Origin: Deltaproteobacteria bacterium
GTDB lineage: Bacteria; Desulfobacterota; Binatia; UTPRO1
Length of the DNA: 37,841 nucleotides
NCBI GenBank assembly: GCA_029262315.1
Contig: JAJCZP010000173.1
Location: 1-37,841 of the forward strand
Direction of reading: 5' to 3'
In this document: positions 1 through 14,191 of the stretch, one piece after another
Layout: each line of letters opens with the position of its first letter
Position numbering within the stretch: position 1 is the stretch's first letter
Position numbers and translations under genes: made by a program
Notes under the pieces: model-generated
The model's input: only the letters and a program-made list of their open reading frames with translations
Told to the model about the DNA's origin: nothing
Databases searched by the model: none

Positions 1-3000
1 GCCTACGCCGAGCTCGACGCGCGCTGGGACGCGGGCAAGGCAGCAGCGTACCCGTCGGTCGACGCCTGGAGCCGCAACTTCCGGACCGCGCTCGCAGACC
101 GTGCCTGGGACGCAGTTGCGAGCGGCCTCGCATCCGATTGCGTCGCCCAGGACCACCGGCTGGTAGGCTGGGGGACGCTGCACGGCAAGGGGTTCACGCG
201 CGCGCTACAGGCGATGACCGAGCTTGCACCCGATGCGCAGGGGCGGACGGATCACGTACGGTTCGCCAGCCGTGGACTCCTCACGGAGACCGTGTGGGTC
301 GGCACGCGCGACGGCGGCGCGTTCGAGAGTCCGTTCCTCTTTGTCTGCGAGCTCGACGCGCACGGGCTTGCGCAGCGCCTCGACTTCTACGATCCGCATC
401 ATCTCGAGCGCGCACTCGCACGCTTCGACGAGATCAACGCGCCCACGGCCCTCGACCAGCACGCGGCGAGCGAGCGTCCGAATACGGCGTCTTCCCCCGA
501 GCGATTCGCGAACAGCGCGACGCGGGCCGGGGAACACATGGTGGCCGTCCTCGCGGCACGCGACGCGGACGGCTTTCCCCCACTCCTGGCGCCTGACTTC
601 CGGAACATCGATCGCCGTAGGCACGTGCAGCTTGAGTTCGATCGCGACCAGATCCTTGTCATGTTCCGCGAGATCGTCGAGATGACAACCTCGCCGCCGG
701 CCTACGACGTGCTCGCGACGCGGGGTGAGCACCTGGCGCTCACCCGCATGCTCTGGCAGGGCGCCGGAGGCGACATCGGCCCAACCGAGCTCGAGTGGCT
801 GATTCTCGCCGAGGCGAACGAACGCGGCGAATTTCGCCTGGTCGTCGCCTTCGACCCCGAGGCGCTCGATGCGGCCCGCGCCGAGCTCGATGCGCGCTGG
901 GAGGCTGGCGAGGACGGGAGGCATGGACCGGCGCCCATCTGGATGCGCCGCTTGCTCGAGACGCTGGTCTCCCGCAACTGGGAAGCTGCCGAGCACTGGC
1001 TCTCGCCCACCGTCGTCGGCCACGACCACCGGCTGGTCGGCTGGGACACCTTGCGCGGTCGCGCCGAGTTCCTCCGATCGCTGCAGGCTATGTCAGAGCT
1101 CGCTCCCGACGCCAACATCCAGACGCATCACGCCCGCGCATCGAATCGGGCGATGATCGTCGACTCCACCTGGGTGGGTACACGCGACGGTGGCGCCTTC
1201 GAGAGTCCGTACGTCAGCGTGGTCGAGTTCGACGCGCACGGGCTGGCCGAGCGCCTCGACTTCTACGACCCGCATCACCTGGACCGCGCCCGCGCACGCT
1301 TCGAGGAGATCGCGGCGGGCACGGCTGACGCGGACCCGCGCGCAACGCTCGATCGGCGGGCCGCCATCGCGAAGCCGAACACGGTAAGCGCCGCCACCAC
1401 GCGCTGGGTGGCCGCCTACGACGCGGCCGTCGCGACGGAGGACTGGGAGCCGCTCCGCCAGCTCGGCGTGCAGGAGATGACGTTCGACGACCGGCGGCGG
1501 CTCGCGCTTCTCTCCGGCGACCGCGAGATGATGATCGCGTCTGCCCGCGAGCGCGCGGCCACGGGCGCGAAGATCGAGCTGCAGCTGGTCGGGACGGCCG
1601 GCGATCGGGTTGCCATCTACCGGGCCCTCTGGTCGGGCGGTCCTACCGGGGGCCGCTTCGAGATCGAGTATTTCTCCGTCGGAGAAGTCGACGAGGCTGG
1701 GCTCATCAGCGCCTTTGTCTTCATCGACCTCGACGATCCGCTCGCTGCGCTGCGCGAGGCGTGGACGCGCTGGGAGGCGATCGATCCCACGGTCACACCT
1801 GCGCTCGAGGCGATCCGGCACGCCACCGAGGCGTTCAACGCGCACGACCGCGATCGGTTTCGAGCGAACTACGCGGACGACGTCGTCGCCGAGGACCACC
1901 GGCACGCGGGCTTCGGACGAATCGAGGGCGCGGAAGCCTACGCGGACAGTGTCGCTGTGCTCTGGGAGCTCACGCCCGGCACGACGGCCGAGGCGGGTTG
2001 GTTCTGGCCGACCATCGCCCCGGAAGGCGGTGTCACCCTGCTCCGCCGGACCGGCACCGTGTCGGACGGGGGCCCCTTCGAGAGCGAGTACCTGTGGCTG
2101 TTCCTCCTGGAGGAAGGGCGCATCAAACACGCCGAGTTCTACGAACCGGACGCACTCGACACGGCGCTCGCGCGCTTCGCGGAGTTGCGGCCGGACGGGC
2201 CGCGCGAGACGTCGGGCGCGGTGGCGCAGCCGGCGGCCGTGGGGAGCCGGGCACACGGCGCGCCCGACCCCTTCGCGGCGCTCGCGAAGCCGAACGCGGC
2301 GACCCGAGCGCTCGACCGGTGGGGAGAGGCGTTCGACGCCGGCGTCGACACGGGCGACTGGCACCCGATGGAGCGCCTCTGCGCGCCGGGGATGGTCTTC
2401 GAGGACCGGCAGCGCCGCGCCCTCGTCTCCGGTGATGCCGCGCTGATGACCGCCTCCGCCCGCGAGCGGGCCGCACTCGGCGCTCGGCCCGAACTCTCCG
2501 TGGTCGGGATCGCGGGTGAGCGCGTCGCCATCGGCAAGAGCCTCTGGGCGGGCGGCCCCGCCGACGGCCGCTTCGAGGTCGAGTTCTTCACGGTGACGGA
2601 GGTCGACGAGGCCAACCGCATCACCGCGATGCTCCTGATGGACATCGACGACCCGATGGCGGCACTGCGCGAGGGCTGGAGGCGCTGGGCGGCGATCGAT
2701 CCCGTCGCTGCACCGTTCGTCGAGCTCTTCTCGACCGGTGATCCGGGCAGTCGGGACCTCGACGTGTTTCGCACGGTCTATGCCGACGATCTCGTCGTGG
2801 AGGATCGCCGTCGCACGGGCATTGGTCGGATCGAAGGCCTCGAGGCGTACCACAAGGCCGCCGACGTCTTCTGGCAGCTCGCGCCGGACACGCGCGTCGA
2901 GCTCGGTCAGTACTGGCCCGCCTACGATCGACACGCGGCACTCCTGACCCTCCGTCGCACGGGCACCATCGCAGACGGCGGCGGTGCGTTCGAGAGCTAC

Positions 3001-5601
3001 TCCCTCGTCCTTTCGGTAATGGGCCCCGACGGGCGCATCAGCCACCAAGAGCTGTTCGAGCCCGAGGCGCTGGACGCCGCGCTCGCTCGCTTCGAGGAGC
3101 TACGGCCCGACCCACTGCGCATCCTGCCGAATGCGGCGACGCGGGCTCACGACCGCTGGTACGAAGCCGTGCGGTCCGGAGACTTGTCAGCTGCCACCGC
3201 GATGCACGAGGCGAGCTACACGATGGACGACCGTCGCCGTTTGGTCCGCCATGAGCATGGCCGCGAAGGGGAGATCTCCAACGCGCAATGGCTCTTCGAA
3301 GGCGGGTGGCGGGCGACGCGGACGCTTCTAGCCACAGCGGGCGATCGCCTGGCGCTGCAGCGGATCGTGTGGACGCGCGGTGAAGCGGGCGCCAGCTCCG
3401 TGGTCGAGAGCATCGAGCTGGACGAGGTCGATAGCGAGGGGCGTTTCGTCCGGATCGTCGTATTCGACGCCGACGACCGCCCCGCGGCAAGCGCGGAGCT
3501 CTTCGAGCGCTCGACGGAGGAATGGCCGCGCTGGGTCGGCGAGTTTCTGCGTGCGATGAACGAGCACGATCTCGTCCGCGTTCGCGCCGCTCTGTGCGAC
3601 GACTTCGTCCTCGACGATCACCGCCGCACCGGCATGGGACGACTCGAAGGCGCAGACGCGTACATCGCGTCGGTGGTCGCAGCTTACGAGCTCAGCCCCG
3701 ACCTGCAGGTCGATATTTTGTACACAGCCGCTGAGGGAGAGCACGGTTTCGTCATCCTCGCACGTAGGGCGGGGACGAACACCGAGGGCGGCGCGTTCGA
3801 GTCGATCTACTTTGTCCTAGCGCTGTACCGAGACGAGAAGCTCGCCCTCTACGAGTTCTTCGAACCGGAGTATCTCGACAAAGCGCTGGCACGCTTCGAG
3901 GAGCTGCGGCCCGACCCGCTCCGCGTCCCGCCGAACGCAGCGACGCAAAACCGTGATCGCGCCTGCGAATACGGCGCGGCGGGCGACTGGGACGCGCTCC
4001 GCGCGCTGTACGCATCGACCGTGCACTACGAGGATCGCCGCCCCATGCTTCGGAGCGTTGGCGACAAGGATTCGGCCGTTGCCGACCTGCGGTACCTCTT
4101 CGCCGAGGCGAAGGCGCGGGTCGACCGCACGCTACTCGCGACCGGCGGCGAACGGATCGCGCTCGAGCATTGGGTGTGGACGGCTGCCGACCCGGAGCAA
4201 CAGTTCGAGCTGGACGCGCTCGCGTTGGTGGAGGTCGATGCTGCGGACCTCGTCGTGGCCGTCATCCTGTTCCACCCAGACGATCGTGCCGCCGCAAGCG
4301 CAGAGATGATGCAACGCTCGGTTGCGCACGGAGTCGACGCGCGTCCGAGGGGCGCGGCAGAACACGTAGCGGCGTGGAACGACCACGACCTCGACCGACT
4401 GCGCACCGGCTTGTCCGACGACTACTACTTCGACGATCGCCGGCGCACCGGCATCGGCCTCGTGGACCGCGACACGTACCTGGCCTCGCTTACGGCGCTG
4501 TATGAGCTGAGCCCTGACGTGCGGTCCGAAATCCTCTACGCCATGAGCGAAACGAAGCACGCCGCCCTCTTCGTCAGCCGCTGGTACGGCACCAATGCCG
4601 AGGGCGGCGAGTTCGAGAGCGTCTTCATCGTACTCGTTCGCGTCGACGGGGAGCGGCTCGTCGGAACCGAGGTCTTCGAGATCGACGATCTCGACCTGGC
4701 CCGCGCCCGCTTCGAAGAGTTGGAGGCAACGTCGCGAAGCATCGGATCCCAGCCCCCGAACCCCAGTCCCGTGGAGATCCCGCCAAACGCAGCCACGCAT
4801 GCCTCGAAGCAGTTCTACCGAGCCTCCGTTGCCAGGGAGTGGGACGCCGTTCGCGAGATCGTCACCACTGACTTCGTGTTCGAGGATCGCAGCAAGCACG
4901 CACTGATCGAGGGCGACGTCGAGTCGTGGATCGCCTCGGCGAAGTTCACGCGCGCGCTACCGGGCATCCAGATACACGGGGGGCTCGTTGGTACGATCGG
5001 CGAACGGATCGCGCTAGAGACGCTCATCTGGTCCGGGAGCCCCAACGGAGAGACCTACGAATTCGACCGCCTCCGGCTGCTCGAGGTCGATGCGGAGGGA
5101 AACGTCCGGGCAGCCATCTTGTTCGACCGCGACGATCGCGCCGCCGCCACCGTCGAGGCGCTGCAGCGCTTCGCGGCCGGCGAAGCGGCGGGCATCGGCT
5201 GGGAAGCGACGATGGTCAGGTTGTACCGTGCGTGGTTGGAACGCGACTGGCGAACCCAGAAATCGATCGCGGCGCCCGATCTCGCCTTTCAGGACCACCG
5301 CTGTCTCGGCCTTGGCACCTACACCCCGGGCGAGCTGATCGATTCGCTCCGGAGCCTTGCGACTCTGGCGCCCGACGTCCGCCTAGACGTGAGCCGGATC
5401 GTCCGCTGGAACCGCCACGGCTGGGTCTCGCGCAACTGCGCGGTTGGAACCTTCCCTGGAGGCGGACCGTTCGAGCAACCGTTCCTCGACGTCATCATGG
5501 TGGACGGGGAGCGGGCCCGGCGAATCGAGCTCTTCGAGATTGAAGACCTCGACCGTGCGCTCGCCCGATTCGAAGAACTCTGCGCCGAACGAACGGACTG
5601 A
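1..5601 (+). CDS. Giant tandem NTF2/SnoaL-like repeat protein (5' end outside window)
   Basis: The frame is open from base 1, so the start lies upstream; 1866 residues are visible. The whole visible part is tandem NTF2-like modules of about 130-150 residues in two alternating types. Type A carries an EDRRR-like motif, then VGTAGERxAL, LWSGGP and an FDxDDRAAA-type end. Type B carries an EDHRRTGxGR-like motif, RxGTxxGGxFES and a FFEPExLDxALARFEEL end. I count the tail of one A, then seven B and six A modules (B at about 58, 913, 1789, 2704, 3520, 4348 and 5191; A at about 436, 1327, 2281, 3121, 3922 and 4777). Linkers often start PNAATR. NTF2 domains usually dimerise, so A-B pairs may be covalent dimers. 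From memory, such arrays can sit C-terminal to AAA-type regulators, but that part is not visible. Function unknown; ligand binding is only inferred from the fold. Confidence 0.85.
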   Translation, partial: AYAELDARWDAGKAAAYPSVDAWSRNFRTALADRAWDAVASGLASDCVAQDHRLVGWGTLHGKGFTRALQAMTELAPDAQGRTDHVRFASRGLLTETVWVGTRDGGAFESPFLFVCELDAHGLAQRLDFYDPHHLERALARFDEINAPTALDQHAASERPNTASSPERFANSATRAGEHMVAVLAARDADGFPPLLAPDFRNIDRRRHVQLEFDRDQILVMFREIVEMTTSPPAYDVLATRGEHLALTRMLWQGAGGDIGPTELEWLILAEANERGEFRLVVAFDPEALDAARAELDARWEAGEDGRHGPAPIWMRRLLETLVSRNWEAAEHWLSPTVVGHDHRLVGWDTLRGRAEFLRSLQAMSELAPDANIQTHHARASNRAMIVDSTWVGTRDGGAFESPYVSVVEFDAHGLAERLDFYDPHHLDRARARFEEIAAGTADADPRATLDRRAAIAKPNTVSAATTRWVAAYDAAVATEDWEPLRQLGVQEMTFDDRRRLALLSGDREMMIASARERAATGAKIELQLVGTAGDRVAIYRALWSGGPTGGRFEIEYFSVGEVDEAGLISAFVFIDLDDPLAALREAWTRWEAIDPTVTPALEAIRHATEAFNAHDRDRFRANYADDVVAEDHRHAGFGRIEGAEAYADSVAVLWELTPGTTAEAGWFWPTIAPEGGVTLLRRTGTVSDGGPFESEYLWLFLLEEGRIKHAEFYEPDALDTALARFAELRPDGPRETSGAVAQPAAVGSRAHGAPDPFAALAKPNAATRALDRWGEAFDAGVDTGDWHPMERLCAPGMVFEDRQRRALVSGDAALMTASARERAALGARPELSVVGIAGERVAIGKSLWAGGPADGRFEVEFFTVTEVDEANRITAMLLMDIDDPMAALREGWRRWAAIDPVAAPFVELFSTGDPGSRDLDVFRTVYADDLVVEDRRRTGIGRIEGLEAYHKAADVFWQLAPDTRVELGQYWPAYDRHAALLTLRRTGTIADGGGAFESYSLVLSVMGPDGRISHQELFEPEALDAALARFEELRPDPLRILPNAATRAHDRWYEAVRSGDLSAATAMHEASYTMDDRRRLVRHEHGREGEISNAQWLFEGGWRATRTLLATAGDRLALQRIVWTRGEAGASSVVESIELDEVDSEGRFVRIVVFDADDRPAASAELFERSTEEWPRWVGEFLRAMNEHDLVRVRAALCDDFVLDDHRRTGMGRLEGADAYIASVVAAYELSPDLQVDILYTAAEGEHGFVILARRAGTNTEGGAFESIYFVLALYRDEKLALYEFFEPEYLDKALARFEELRPDPLRVPPNAATQNRDRACEYGAAGDWDALRALYASTVHYEDRRPMLRSVGDKDSAVADLRYLFAEAKARVDRTLLATGGERIALEHWVWTAADPEQQFELDALALVEVDAADLVVAVILFHPDDRAAASAEMMQRSVAHGVDARPRGAAEHVAAWNDHDLDRLRTGLSDDYYFDDRRRTGIGLVDRDTYLASLTALYELSPDVRSEILYAMSETKHAALFVSRWYGTNAEGGEFESVFIVLVRVDGERLVGTEVFEIDDLDLARARFEELEATSRSIGSQPPNPSPVEIPPNAATHASKQFYRASVAREWDAVREIVTTDFVFEDRSKHALIEGDVESWIASAKFTRALPGIQIHGGLVGTIGERIALETLIWSGSPNGETYEFDRLRLLEVDAEGNVRAAILFDRDDRAAATVEALQRFAAGEAAGIGWEATMVRLYRAWLERDWRTQKSIAAPDLAFQDHRCLGLGTYTPGELIDSLRSLATLAPDVRLDVSRIVRWNRHGWVSRNCAVGTFPGGGPFEQPFLDVIMVDGERARRIELFEIEDLDRALARFEELCAERTD

Positions 5602-5716: not shown

Positions 5717-5953
5717 GTGCGCACCACTCTAGATATCGATGACGATGTACTGCGGGCAGCAAAGGAGCTTGCGCGTCGCGAAAAGAAGACAGCCGGAGCC
5801 GTCATTTCGGAGCTGACACGCAAAGCGTTGACGGCGACGCCGTCGGAGGCCGAGGAGCCAGAAGCCACCTATGGGTTTCGGCCGTTCCCGAAGCGCGGCG
5901 AGGTCGTCACCAACACGCAGATCGACAAGCTGCGTGAGGAGGATGCGTTCTGA
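5717..5953 (+). CDS. vapB: VapB-type antitoxin (ribbon-helix-helix)
   Basis: This 78-residue protein opens MRTTLDIDDDVLRAAKELA, the beta strand and first helix typical of VapB ribbon-helix-helix antitoxins. The N-terminal 40 residues should bind the operator. The C-terminal 35 (with FRPFPKRGEVVTN and LREEDAF) should wrap and inhibit the toxin, as in this family. The start is GTG at 5717; the ATG at 5713 is in a frame that stops after a few codons. Its stop overlaps the ATG of vapC by one base (TGATG), so the two genes are translationally coupled. The palindrome at 5696-5711 is probably bound by VapB or the VapBC complex. Confidence 0.85.
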   Translation: MRTTLDIDDDVLRAAKELARREKKTAGAVISELTRKALTATPSEAEEPEATYGFRPFPKRGEVVTNTQIDKLREEDAF

Positions 5954-6381
5954 TGCGGGCGCTCCTCGACATCAATGTCCTGATCGCGCTGCTGGACCAG
6001 GATCACTCCATGCACAGGCAGGCCGGTCGCTGGTTTGCCACCGAGGCAGAGTCCGGTTGGGCATCCTGCCCGATCACGCAGAATGGTTGCGTACGAATCA
6101 TGTCCCACTCCAGCTATCCGAATCCACTACCCGTTGGGGCGATCATGGAGCGACTCGGCGAAGCGATCGCCACCGCGCAGCACGAGTTCTGGCCGGACGA
6201 TATCACCCTGCTCGACGCCCGGGTCGCCGACCGGACACGTATCCACGGGCCCCGGCAGGTCACCGATCTCTACCTGCTCGCCCTCGCCGTCCGTCAGAGC
6301 GGATGCTTCGTCTCGTTCGACTCCTCCGTGCCGCGTAGTGCCATCAAAGGTGCTGAAAAGCGGCATCTGGTCACTCTTTGA
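5953..6381 (+). CDS. vapC: VapC-type PIN-domain ribonuclease toxin
   Basis: A 142-residue PIN-domain protein. VapC toxins are Mg-dependent ribonucleases that cut tRNA or rRNA and are held inactive by VapB. The N-terminus RALLDINVLIALLD gives the first acidic residue (D6). VTDLYLLALA supplies D105 and FVSFDSSVP supplies D123. The segment CPITQNGCVRI has Gln43 where many relatives have the catalytic Glu (TENG), so one metal-site acid may be altered; Gln also occurs in some family members, so this does not prove inactivity. Length is normal for the family. It is coupled to vapB by a one-base overlap. Confidence 0.87.
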   Translation: MRALLDINVLIALLDQDHSMHRQAGRWFATEAESGWASCPITQNGCVRIMSHSSYPNPLPVGAIMERLGEAIATAQHEFWPDDITLLDARVADRTRIHGPRQVTDLYLLALAVRQSGCFVSFDSSVPRSAIKGAEKRHLVTL

Positions 6382-6676: not shown

Positions 6677-9121
6677 ATGTCTAGATACCGTGCCGAAGAC
6701 GTGCTCGCGCCGTGCCGAGACTGGGCGCGCCATCGACCCATTGTGGCCCGAGAGGCTCGTACGATATCGAGACCCTCGGCGCTCCTTTGCGCTGTCTTCG
6801 GACTGTGCGCCGCCGTGACCGTCGCCGCCCTCGCCTCCCCCGCATTCTCCGCACACTGCGGCGTACAGACCTCCCCCGACGGCCTGCGTGTCATGGCCAA
6901 CCGGGATATCGGCAACGAACGCTGGGCCATCACGCAACATCCGTCCGGCGTCGTCACTGGAAACGTCTTCCGCTCCGACAACGAAACGCCAGCCTTCATC
7001 TCCTGTCAGCCAGCGGAGATCGCGAACCAGTATCGCTGCATGGGCGGTGATGGGTGTCTCGCGGACACCTCGGGCAGTGGCGCGCCTCGTGCCGTGTCGG
7101 TTGAACCCGCAAACGGCCTTCTGCTTGCCAACAAGAACGTCGGGAACGAGCGGTGGGCGATCACCGAGAACGACGACGGCTCGATCACCGGGAACGTCTT
7201 CGGCGCCGAGGGTGACGCACCGGTCTTCGTCTTCTGTGAGCCGAACGGCACGCCCGACGGCTTCACCTGCTTTGGCGCCGACTCGTGCGTGGCCGAACCC
7301 TGCGGTAGCGACTTCGCACTCCTCGGAGACGTGACGCTGCCGGCCGACTTCCTCGCGCCGCCGACGGATTGTGCGGACGAGTACGACGTGATCGGCGAAG
7401 CGGTCGAGCTCCCCGACGACCTGTTCCTTCCCGAGAGCTGTCTGTCGACGTGCGGGAACGGCGTGCGCGAGACCGGCGAGGGCTGCGACGGCGACGACGA
7501 CGCGCTCTGCCCGGGCCAATGCTCCGACGCCTGCGCCTGTCCCGGAAACGGAGAGATCGAGATCTTCGTCGACGCCGGTTCCGCGCTCGACGCCGGCTGG
7601 ACGGGCACCGTCCACGGGCTCCCCTTTCAACGCGGCGCGCGTATCACCGGCGACCTCACGAACTGCGACGGGCAGGACGACACGCTGTGCGACTTCCGCG
7701 GCGACATCGGCTCATCCTGCTCGGGAGATGCGAGCCGCGCGTGCACCAGAGACAACCAGTGCGACGGCGCCGGCCAGTGCGTCCTCCAATACTTCGGACC
7801 GCCGCTGCCACTGTCGGTCGGCGGGGTGCCTGCTTGTATCTTGATCCGGTTCACGACCGACGCGGTCGGCACCTATGATCTCGAGAGCGGAGACATGGAC
7901 TTCTCGCTTGGCCTGAATGCCCTCGCCCACCTGACCCTCGGCGGCAGCGACCCCTGTCCGGTCTGCGACTGCGGCGTGAACGATCTCCAAGACTGTGAGA
8001 TCGGCGACGTCGGCACCTGTGGCGGCAGGAGCTGTACGGTCGAAGGCACGGGAGCGTACGGCCCGACCTCGCTCGACTGCGTCCCGAGCGCGTCTTCGAA
8101 CGTCACCGGGAACGGCATCCAGCTCGTCTTCGATCACGTCACGACTGACACCCTCGCCTTCCCGTCGAGCCAGACGTGCACGGCCTCAGCCTACCAAGAC
8201 TTCAGCTGCTGGTGTGACGGACAGCCGCAACCAAACCGGTGCGGATTGGCCTGCGACGGCGGAAGCAACGACGCGGGCGACTGCAGCAACGATGCCGAGT
8301 GCCCGGGTGGAAGCTGCGTACCCCTCTGCCGACAGATCGATGGCGCCCCGACCGGCGACGGCGAGTGCATCGCCGGCCCCCTCGTGCAAACGTGTGCGGG
8401 CTCACCGCAGACGAGCTGCACCGATAGCGGCGACTGTCCTACGGGCACCGGCCCGTGCGTGAGCCGAAACGAGAGCTGCTTCCCCGATCCACTCGTGCTC
8501 GAGGGCGTTCCTGGCACGACAACGAGTCAACTCGTCGCTTCGGGCTGTGTACCGAGCGCCGGCGGCGCGATGGATCAGGTCGCGGGCTTGCCAGGTCCGG
8601 CGACCCTGACCCTTCCGAGCACGGTCACCGTCACGTCATGCGGAGACGGTATCGCCAACGGCGCGCGCGAGGAGTGCGACGGCGCCGACGATGCCAGTTG
8701 CCCAGGGATGTGCGGAGCGGACTGCACCTGCGCGAGCACGTGCGGCAACGATACCATCGAACTCGGGGAACAGTGCGACGGCCTGAGCGACGCCACCTGC
8801 CCTGGCGCGTGCGCACCAGCGGGATCGGCCGACGCCTGCACGTGCCCGGCGACCTGCGGCGACGGCTTCCTCAGCGCGGGCGAACAGTGCGACCCCGGCG
8901 GCCTCGGCGGAAGTCCCGCGCCGAGCGACGCCAACTGCCCGGGGCTCTGCCTGCCGGGCTCGTGCGAGTGCCAGGCGCCAGCGGCACCGCAGTGCGGCAA
9001 CCAAACACTCGATTCTGGCGAGACCTGCGAGTTCCCTGCCATGGGCTGCGGCTTGCTGGAGTTCTGTCTGTTCTGCAGCGAGTGCATCTCGTTGATCGAT
9101 CTGTTCCCGATTCCGTTCTGA
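6677..9121 (+). CDS. Exported cysteine-rich repeat protein (paralogue 1)
   Basis: An 814-residue protein with a long basic N-terminus and a hydrophobic export segment (about residues 35-57, ending ASPAFSA). GAGGAG at 6662-6667 supports the ATG at 6677. Residues about 58-210 hold two copies of a ~65-residue unit with the signature GNERWAIT..TGNVF and paired Cys. A large middle region follows, with many CxxDxxCxGxGxC-type units (for example CTRDNQCDGAGQC), clearly related to the protein at 10893-12839. The last ~170 residues are CGDG..GEECDG..CPG repeats of the DUF4215/myxococcal cysteine-rich kind. Probably disulfide-rich and outside the cytoplasm; function unknown. Tandem palindromes at 6575-6611 probably control it, and hairpins follow the stop. 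Confidence 0.8.
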   Translation: MSRYRAEDVLAPCRDWARHRPIVAREARTISRPSALLCAVFGLCAAVTVAALASPAFSAHCGVQTSPDGLRVMANRDIGNERWAITQHPSGVVTGNVFRSDNETPAFISCQPAEIANQYRCMGGDGCLADTSGSGAPRAVSVEPANGLLLANKNVGNERWAITENDDGSITGNVFGAEGDAPVFVFCEPNGTPDGFTCFGADSCVAEPCGSDFALLGDVTLPADFLAPPTDCADEYDVIGEAVELPDDLFLPESCLSTCGNGVRETGEGCDGDDDALCPGQCSDACACPGNGEIEIFVDAGSALDAGWTGTVHGLPFQRGARITGDLTNCDGQDDTLCDFRGDIGSSCSGDASRACTRDNQCDGAGQCVLQYFGPPLPLSVGGVPACILIRFTTDAVGTYDLESGDMDFSLGLNALAHLTLGGSDPCPVCDCGVNDLQDCEIGDVGTCGGRSCTVEGTGAYGPTSLDCVPSASSNVTGNGIQLVFDHVTTDTLAFPSSQTCTASAYQDFSCWCDGQPQPNRCGLACDGGSNDAGDCSNDAECPGGSCVPLCRQIDGAPTGDGECIAGPLVQTCAGSPQTSCTDSGDCPTGTGPCVSRNESCFPDPLVLEGVPGTTTSQLVASGCVPSAGGAMDQVAGLPGPATLTLPSTVTVTSCGDGIANGAREECDGADDASCPGMCGADCTCASTCGNDTIELGEQCDGLSDATCPGACAPAGSADACTCPATCGDGFLSAGEQCDPGGLGGSPAPSDANCPGLCLPGSCECQAPAAPQCGNQTLDSGETCEFPAMGCGLLEFCLFCSECISLIDLFPIPF

Positions 9122-13089: not shown

Positions 13090-13680
13090 ATGGCACGGCC
13101 CAGCAACTTCGAACCCGATCAGGTCGCCGAGGAACTGCTCCAAACCTTCTGGCGTCGCGGCTACGCACGCACCGCCATTGCCGACCTCACGGCCGCGACC
13201 AAACTCCTCCCGGGCAGCCTCTACGGTGCTTTTGGAAACAAAGAAGCGATGTTCCGCATCGCCGTCGCACGCTACCAGGCCTACCTCCGCTCTGCGGTCC
13301 GCGTCCCGACCCGAGGCGTGGCCGGACTGCTGGATCTCCTGGACGCGGTCGTGCGGATCACGGTGGAGGACCCCGAGCGTCGCGGGTGTCTCGTCATCAA
13401 CGCGATCCCCGAAGCGGCGTCCTACTCCGCGGAGACCCGGCAACTCCTACAGGACGACCTGTGCGGATCACAGCGGATCATCCGGAAGCGCCTCCTCGAG
13501 GCGCAGCGGGAATCGGGCGTGCGCGTCGACGTCGACGCACTCGCGGCAACCCTCTTCTCGGCGATCGTCGGCATTCGAGTGCTGGGACGTGCCGGGCAAA
13601 CACCCGCACAGCTTCAGGCCGTCGCCGACGGCGCGAAGCTCCTCGTGGAACGATATTTCGCTCGCTCGCGAAACCCCTAA
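13090..13680 (+). CDS. TetR/AcrR family transcriptional regulator
   Basis: A 196-residue TetR-family repressor. The start is ATG at 13090 (MARPSNFEPDQVAEELL), the usual TetR N-terminus; an in-frame upstream ATG at 13030 would add residues unlike the family and run through the palindrome. The helix-turn-helix is at about residues 27-50 (TAIADLTAATKLLPGSLYGAFGNKEAMF). The C-terminal ligand domain contains RGCLVINAIPEAA, seen in ComR/NemR-like members. Nineteen bases separate it from the next gene, so it leads an operon with the NTF2-like protein and GST. It probably represses this operon through the site at 13055-13070. The GST neighbour suggests an electrophile or toxic compound as inducer. 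Confidence 0.9.
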   Translation: MARPSNFEPDQVAEELLQTFWRRGYARTAIADLTAATKLLPGSLYGAFGNKEAMFRIAVARYQAYLRSAVRVPTRGVAGLLDLLDAVVRITVEDPERRGCLVINAIPEAASYSAETRQLLQDDLCGSQRIIRKRLLEAQRESGVRVDVDALAATLFSAIVGIRVLGRAGQTPAQLQAVADGAKLLVERYFARSRNP

Positions 13681-13699
13681 CGAAACGGAGGAACATCCC

Positions 13700-14191
13700 A
13701 TGACACGACAAGAAGTAGTGGACCAGGTGGAACACGCGACGATCGAAGGCTGTGAGGCCGTGGGACCGGAACGCCGGACCTTCCTCAACGCCGCGTTTGT
13801 CGAGCATCTCGGAGCCGAGATGGCCGGCGACGTGCCCGCGATCATCGCGACGTTCTCGAAAAACGGCGGGCACCTCAGCTTCAATGGAGCACGCTACGAG
13901 GGACCGGAGGAACTCACGACCTTCCACAAGGACTTCGGCTGGGACGGGCGCGGTCTGTTCTCGGATATCAGTGGCAAGATCGTGCGCGTCCTCTATACGC
14001 ACAACAGCATGACCGTGGAGTTCGCCGTACGCGCCAACGTCGACGTGGCCCTGGGCGATGCGCCGGCCGGCCGAACGGTGGCGTTCCCTATGTGCACGAT
14101 CTACCAGTTCGACGACGACGGAAAGCTCCAATCAGAGCGGGCGTACGCCGACTCGGGCGCTCTCCTCCCGCAGCCGATTCTATCTCTGTGA
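13700..14191 (+). CDS. NTF2/SnoaL-like protein
   Basis: A 163-residue protein; the ATG at 13700 is preceded by GGAGG. The pattern fits a single NTF2-fold domain: an N-terminal helix (FLNAAFVEHLGAEMAGDVPAIIATFS), then strands HLSFNGARYEGPEELTTFH and MTVEFAVRANVDV, ending FDDDGKLQSERAYAD. Such proteins bind or isomerise small hydrophobic molecules, but no catalytic set is clear here. It lies between a TetR gene (19-base gap) and a GST gene (4-base gap), so the three are probably co-transcribed and act on the same compound. No signal peptide. Confidence 0.8.
   Translation: MTRQEVVDQVEHATIEGCEAVGPERRTFLNAAFVEHLGAEMAGDVPAIIATFSKNGGHLSFNGARYEGPEELTTFHKDFGWDGRGLFSDISGKIVRVLYTHNSMTVEFAVRANVDVALGDAPAGRTVAFPMCTIYQFDDDGKLQSERAYADSGALLPQPILSL

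Follow-up and report, generated by a model that had tools for sequence, protein, structure and literature searches.

NTF2-like domains have been proposed to act as non-catalytic, ligand-binding regulators of the signalling domains to which they are linked (PMC3924330), and ECF sigma factors may carry a fused SnoaL_2 domain that works by intramolecular contact (PMC7730460). In the SnoaL_2-fused ECF41/ECF56 sigma factors (PMC7730460) and the DUF3828/3887/4878 sensors (PMC3924330), for which a regulatory or ligand-binding role was proposed, an NTF2 domain is joined to a signalling domain, as it is in the giant protein described here. These proteins are described with one or a few NTF2 domains, whereas the giant protein has 32, in fixed A-B pairs, on a cyclase. 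Several NTF2-like domains in one chain are also found in enzymes. The polyether epoxide hydrolases Lsd19 and MonBI-MonBII (PDB 3rga, 4rzm, 9kw6) have two per chain and gave the best whole-pair Foldseek match (E 9e-13), but their domains are placed differently from those of our pair model (rmsd about 12 Å, TM 0.38, 10-12% identity) and they have neither a signalling head nor an array. The iota-carbonic anhydrase (COG4337/COG4875; PDB 7c5x) resembles the giant protein in its tandem NTF2/CaMKII-AD-type repeats within one chain, four in the case of Thalassiosira (PMC8395977). This protein belongs to another NTF2 subfamily, has similar single repeats (>60% identical) instead of A-B pairs and is an enzyme without a signalling head; the CaMKII_AD profile reached 15.3 bits in the upstream part of the giant protein, below its cut-off of 22.1. 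Tandem NTF2 chains described in the open-licence literature range from the two domains of Lsd19 to the roughly four of iota-carbonic anhydrase, in contrast to the giant protein, in which a signalling head is followed by 32 domains of two fixed types.

Both the head and the NTF2 fold are already known. Array-less cyclase-AAA_16-TPR zinc-ribbon paralogs in the host genome have the domain order (DZR, cyclase, AAA_16, helical region) and the catalytic motifs in common with the giant protein, but lack its 4,600-aa NTF2 array. The NCBIfam model TOMM_kin_cyc (TIGR03903) scored 223.4 bits with a related head (L036), below its cut-off of 705.75 and with the cyclase-ATPase part alone aligned, and for a reading as defence cyclase the Pycsar PycC models gave generic cyclase-domain matches only (best E 1.8e-13). 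We found no description of A-B NTF2/SnoaL arrays of such size on a cyclase in the open-licence literature. If the cups bind ligands, bacterial chemical sensing would gain a new layout, with many binding cups and one cyclase. The NTF2 fold is widely used for designed binders, and the giant array would in that case be a natural string of distinct NTF2 pockets that could be used for studying pocket diversification.

The giant gene and its signalling head

The analysed stretch of DNA, referred to as the window, comprises 37,841 nucleotides (contig JAJCZP010000173.1, Deltaproteobacteria bacterium), and its frame 1, already open at base 1, continues uninterrupted up to the stop codon at 5599-5601. 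The first-pass annotation had placed the N-terminus of the encoded protein outside the window and had asked whether an ATPase, cyclase or kinase domain heads it; the retrieved upstream part confirmed the first point and revealed a class III cyclase and an AAA_16 ATPase (Table 1). The full protein has 5,713 aa and its gene, which starts two contigs upstream of the window, spans three contigs. Contig C106 (10,655 bp) is a single open frame from end to end, codes for 18 whole modules and most of A10, and overlaps the start of the window by its terminal 141 bp, while its own first 136 bp are the end of contig C12. The joined frame runs from the ATG at L015:8778 to window position 5601, about 17 kb without interruption. 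A false contig join or a collapsed repeat, which the division of the gene over three contigs of a 298-contig draft might suggest, is highly improbable as the origin of the giant frame and was rejected, since the two overlaps match exactly, each with a sequence found in two contigs only, the joined frame is open with a pair 10 of normal length and score, and the architecture recurs in relatives in which a single contig contains the complete head and array.

Table 1. Features of the giant gene and its product. Positions refer to the window (w), to upstream loci (L012 is contig C106) or to residues of the full protein (aa).
Feature	Position	Strand	Evidence
Giant gene, 5' part (DZR-cyclase-AAA_16-helical region-modules A1 to A10)	L015:8778-9940 + L012:1-10655		joined frame
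Giant gene, 3' third (residues 3848-5713 and stop)	w 1..5601	+	joined frame
Double zinc ribbon (DZR)	aa 3-45		domain search
Class III nucleotide cyclase (PF00211)	aa 77-245		68.6 bits, cut-off 21.9
AAA_16 ATPase (PF13191)	aa 261-425		83.6 bits, cut-off 32.6
Helical/TPR-like region, roughly 680 aa	after AAA_16		weak TPR_12 match near aa 999-1071
16 A-B pairs (32 modules)	aa 1116 to 5705		HMM
C-terminal end of module A10	w 1..39	+	HMM match A10 (aa 3726-3860); 141-bp exact overlap of C106 end and window start
NTF2-like module B10	w 40..429	+	HMM (aa 3861-3990)
NTF2-like module A11	w 508..912	+	HMM
NTF2-like module B11	w 913..1305	+	HMM
NTF2-like module A12	w 1387..1785	+	HMM
NTF2-like module B12	w 1786..2181	+	HMM
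NTF2-like module A13	w 2290..2700	+	HMM
NTF2-like module B13	w 2701..3096	+	HMM
NTF2-like module A14	w 3127..3525	+	HMM; pair modelled, pLDDT 92
NTF2-like module B14	w 3526..3900	+	HMM; modelled with A14
NTF2-like module A15	w 3931..4332	+	HMM
NTF2-like module B15	w 4333..4716	+	HMM
NTF2-like module A16	w 4783..5184	+	HMM
NTF2-like module B16, last of 32	w 5185..5574	+	HMM

The cyclase has retained the two metal-binding Asp of class III enzymes (motifs FADLVGS and LLGDG) as well as the transition-state Asn and Arg (VNVAAR). The ATPase has a Walker A (GSPGLGKS) and a Walker B motif (VLVIDDLQ), and the cyclase catalytic residues as well as the Walker motifs are conserved across the array-bearing heads. 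At the purine-specifying positions, assigned by motif and not by structure, the giant protein has Q (KVTQLLGDG) and E (TEIIGDPVN) and not the Lys/Asp pair of adenylate cyclases. Because most relatives have K/D at these positions, the cyclase product is uncertain. The Q/E pair (head residues 121-130 and 187-200) occurs in a subclade together with the heads of L052, L053 and L056, and a switch of the cyclase product within the family is possible judging from these residues. The giant protein is presumably cytoplasmic.

Module types, fold and cup residues

A Pfam search identified 12 SnoaL_2 (PF12680) stretches in the 1,866 visible residues (211.7 bits, E 2.2e-63) and 13 in the upstream part (224.3 bits), the cut-off being 27 bits. 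Using HMMs of the two module types we counted 13 complete NTF2-like modules in the window, which follow each other from B10 to B16 in the order B-A-B-...-A-B without break, in agreement with the strict alternation described in the first-pass annotation. Its minimum of six pairs is far exceeded beyond the visible part, as the whole array consists of 16 pairs. Each type also has an ending of its own, but the endings are looser than the FDxDDRAAA (A) and FFEPExLDxALARFEEL (B) proposed before: A modules end approximately with [FIM][DH]x[DE][DA]xxAA, with the exact DDRAAA in the last two A modules only, and B modules with [FY][DE]xxxL[DE]xAxARF.

The expectation that A and B form two clades is borne out by a maximum-likelihood tree of the 32 modules, in which both types lie on opposite sides of one branch (UFBoot/SH-aLRT 94/94). 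This split is present in 96% of the bootstrap trees, with 0 of 500 shuffles as low, and the HMM of a module's own type beats that of the other by at least 87 bits in 32 of 32 cases. Profiles built from the giant protein alone also separate the modules of relatives, all 183 of which score at least 14 bits better with their own type. Three classes of pairs were distinguished, namely I (pairs 1, 2, 3, 6 and 8), II (4, 5, 7, 9, 10 and 11) and III (12-16), which together with the whole pairs carried by relatives agrees with the proposed growth by duplication of A-B pairs, or of multi-pair blocks. B5 is joined with B7 and B6 with B8 (100/99 each), as expected if pairs 5-6 were copied as a block to give pairs 7-8, although the module tree places A7 elsewhere. 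As the pairs are at most 54% identical to each other in amino acids (66% in DNA), the array is old and neither a collapsed nor a recent repeat. Sister pairs have dN/dS values of 0.44-0.78 (simple Nei-Gojobori; dS is rough at a GC3 of 84%), which also fits relaxed constraint and counts against the sensory function proposed below.

AlphaFold2 predicted two NTF2 folds for pair 14, that is two H-H-E-E-H-E-E-E-E units (pLDDT 92.1, pTM 0.82), and gave a pLDDT of 86.6 and a pTM of 0.59 for pairs 13-14; the inputs were window sequences plus one relative, in shallow alignments of 11 and 9 rows, respectively. Each half of the pair matches ketosteroid isomerase (KSI), SnoaL-type and designed NTF2 proteins (Z 12.6-14.4), and the fold matches include the enzymes IdmH, SnoL, KSI, LEH and Lsd19/MonB. 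In sequence profile searches B matched IdmH (E 4e-6) and A matched designed NTF2 proteins and KSI. Pfam, profiles, pair model and structure matches all agree with the NTF2 fold postulated from the sequence. The drop in pTM from one pair to two points to a fixed interface between A and B and would fit rigid pairs with loose links between them. The built-in heterodimer proposed for each A-B pair is plausible but unproven, as the predicted arrangement of the two modules does not superpose on the known two-NTF2 chains Lsd19/MonB (rmsd 11.7-12.8 Å, TM 0.35-0.38 for the pair model). The hydrophobicity of the sheet faces, examined with regard to such a dimer, gave a mixed picture; one face of the strands is variable but often hydrophobic.

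Asp38 of tKSI is the catalytic base of this enzyme. Position 35 of the A profile aligns with this residue (match of 5-35 to 8-38) and is Asp in 77%, His in 11% and Glu in 5% of 103 A modules, class-I A modules having (Y/D/H/W)H-x-TG there. Of 103 B modules, 96% have Asp and 4% have Asn at the corresponding position 164; the next residue is H or R and the one after it is Arg (95%), and G216, G221, G222 and E225 of the B modules are kept at 96-100%. Judging from these conserved positions, almost every module seems to have kept its cup. Asp or His at the position of the KSI base would also fit enzymes, and the conservation does not tell binding from catalysis.

Relatives of the head and the array

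A pair profile matched 13 of 148 genomes of the host's class, including the host, whereas in 395 evenly sampled genomes of the phylum it matched none but the host. Among the matches listed in a scan of named genomes there is one named relative, 'Deltaproteobacteria bacterium' NC_groundwater_1022, which is apparently identical with genome G095 of the host's class, since both gave the same matches at the same coordinates. A tblastn search of plasmids with pair 14 gave no match. Similar module sequences may also occur in annotated Actinobacteria. With the head as query 13 genomes of the host's class were found, 12 of which are array genomes; in the other one (G024) the contig ends inside the head. 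A long, starred branch leads to the single clade of the array-bearing heads, apart from the many array-less cyclase-ATPase paralogs of the host; the rows labelled 'plain' inside this clade of the head tree are the broken copies L034, L039 and L056. One genome (G115) has an array match without a full head. Its locus L069 (G115:C87) has an ORF of 564 aa from base 1106, in which head profile positions 36-399 are fused directly to one single B module, and judging from this fusion it is a deletion derivative.

Intact proteins with the same head have 10, 10, 12, 12, 12, 14, 18 and 20 modules, the 18-module protein being cut at its 5' end by the contig edge. L052 (G113:C445) has 17 modules with one B missing, so that A directly follows A (residues 2929-3220), which is the sole break of alternation among the intact relatives. 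The order of the classes from N to C is I, II, III across the proteins, and the giant protein mixes I and II in the middle of its array (pairs 4-8). The heads of the relatives are 63-77% identical to that of the giant protein, compared with 41-56% (median 47%) for the best-matching pairs across proteins. As relatives combine the same head, belonging to one clade, with 10 to 20 modules in nearly always whole pairs, the A-B pair is an inherited unit whose number varies and with which the conserved head goes along. The sequence comparisons establish the A-B pair as the duplicating unit and show that the head is conserved as one clade, with the array diverging faster and changing in number.

Further copies of the array are shorter or frame-broken. 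In L034, L039, L054 and L056 (genomes G030, G001, G092 and G090) the array gene is split over several frames, and G030 has two intact copies in addition; these are either decaying genes or the result of sequencing indels. The occurrence of frame-broken copies in several relatives was also counted against a sensory function. The giant gene is directly preceded on C12 by a row of four zinc-ribbon cyclase-AAA paralogs without array, all in the same direction (G000:C12:2417-19234; L051, L015), and the host genome has more than 10 of them in all. In L042 a 45-nucleotide sequence occurs twice in frame (2894-2938 and 7991-8035, 89% alike), once in the head and once in a linker of the array (peptide PLLGKEGG), which looks like the frame-preserving insertion of a small palindromic element.

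Possible functions of the array

Because a conserved ATP-switch cyclase head is inherited with a faster-evolving, length-variable array of cups, we read the protein as an effector with its sensor. We tentatively favor a cytoplasmic multi-ligand sensor-cyclase, in which the cups bind small molecules and gate the ATPase-cyclase head, although we rate its probability at slightly less than even. This proposal is supported by the array always standing behind the same head clade, by the conserved cyclase and Walker motifs of the array-bearing heads, by the strict pairs of relatives with their faster divergence than that of the heads, by cups that look maintained and by the precedents for NTF2-like domains in signalling. 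With its two cups, each A-B pair would bind small molecules, probably hydrophobic or aromatic ones, and occupancy of the array by a ligand or partner would be relayed via the helical region; the ATP-dependent switch would receive this signal and set the cyclase output (cAMP or cGMP). The expanded and diverged array might allow one enzyme to integrate many related ligands or to gain high avidity. A more far-reaching version, which we regard as conceivable but rather doubtful, is a single-chain multi-input receptor, in which 16 different two-cup units respond to one related small molecule each and together feed a single ATP-gated cyclase, and lineages retune the receptor by duplicating and diverging pairs while the head is kept, comparable to a repertoire of binding domains lined up on one signalling enzyme.

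The pairs could instead bind protein partners or oligomerise the cyclase via their NTF2 sheet faces, with the cups as structural leftovers. Such a multivalent scaffold or protein-binding tail would be in line with the common use of NTF2-like domains for dimerisation and association, as in CaMKII-AD and NTF2 (PMC8395977), with the intramolecular contact used by SnoaL_2-fused sigma factors, with the varying array length and with the often hydrophobic strand face. The near-invariant Asp, Arg, Glu and Gly in nearly every B module suggest a kept and not a decayed cup, and we consider this function unlikely, albeit worth weighing.

Slightly lower still in our ranking, and likewise unlikely, is a concatemer of catalytic NTF2 cups of the SnoaL cyclase, epoxide hydrolase or ketosteroid isomerase type, with a regulatory head for co-regulation or channelling. 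It would explain why the closest folds are enzymes and why most modules keep an acidic residue at the Asp38 position, and with Lsd19/MonB there are single-chain enzymes with two NTF2 domains. On the other hand, the head is of the signalling type, and a Pfam search of the downstream genes in the window found no polyketide or terpene biosynthetic cluster among the annotated ones. Furthermore, we know of no catalytic set corresponding to the signature residues DRR, DHR and GGxFE of the A and B types, and of no precedent for 32 catalytic domains in one chain.

A non-functional repeat expansion by slippage or recombination under weak selection, with the head alone being of importance, might account for module numbers from about 10 to 32, for the frame-broken copies and for dN/dS values of up to 0.78, but is improbable in view of the unbroken 17-kb frame, the broadly same N-to-C order of the three pair classes across proteins, the conserved cup residues, the retention of whole pairs with one exception among intact proteins and the lack of near-identical repeats.

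Directly 3' of the giant gene a pair of small genes is located on the forward strand (window 5717-6381), encoding a VapB-like antitoxin (a weak match below the Pfam cut-off) and a PIN-like protein of 142 aa, the first 100 residues of which gave no Pfam match; by sequence this is probably a toxin-antitoxin pair. Further downstream on the same strand, a lone SnoaL_2 domain (13814-14128) lies in an ORF (13178-14191) between the genes of a TetR regulator and a glutathione S-transferase, and may be distantly related to the array modules.
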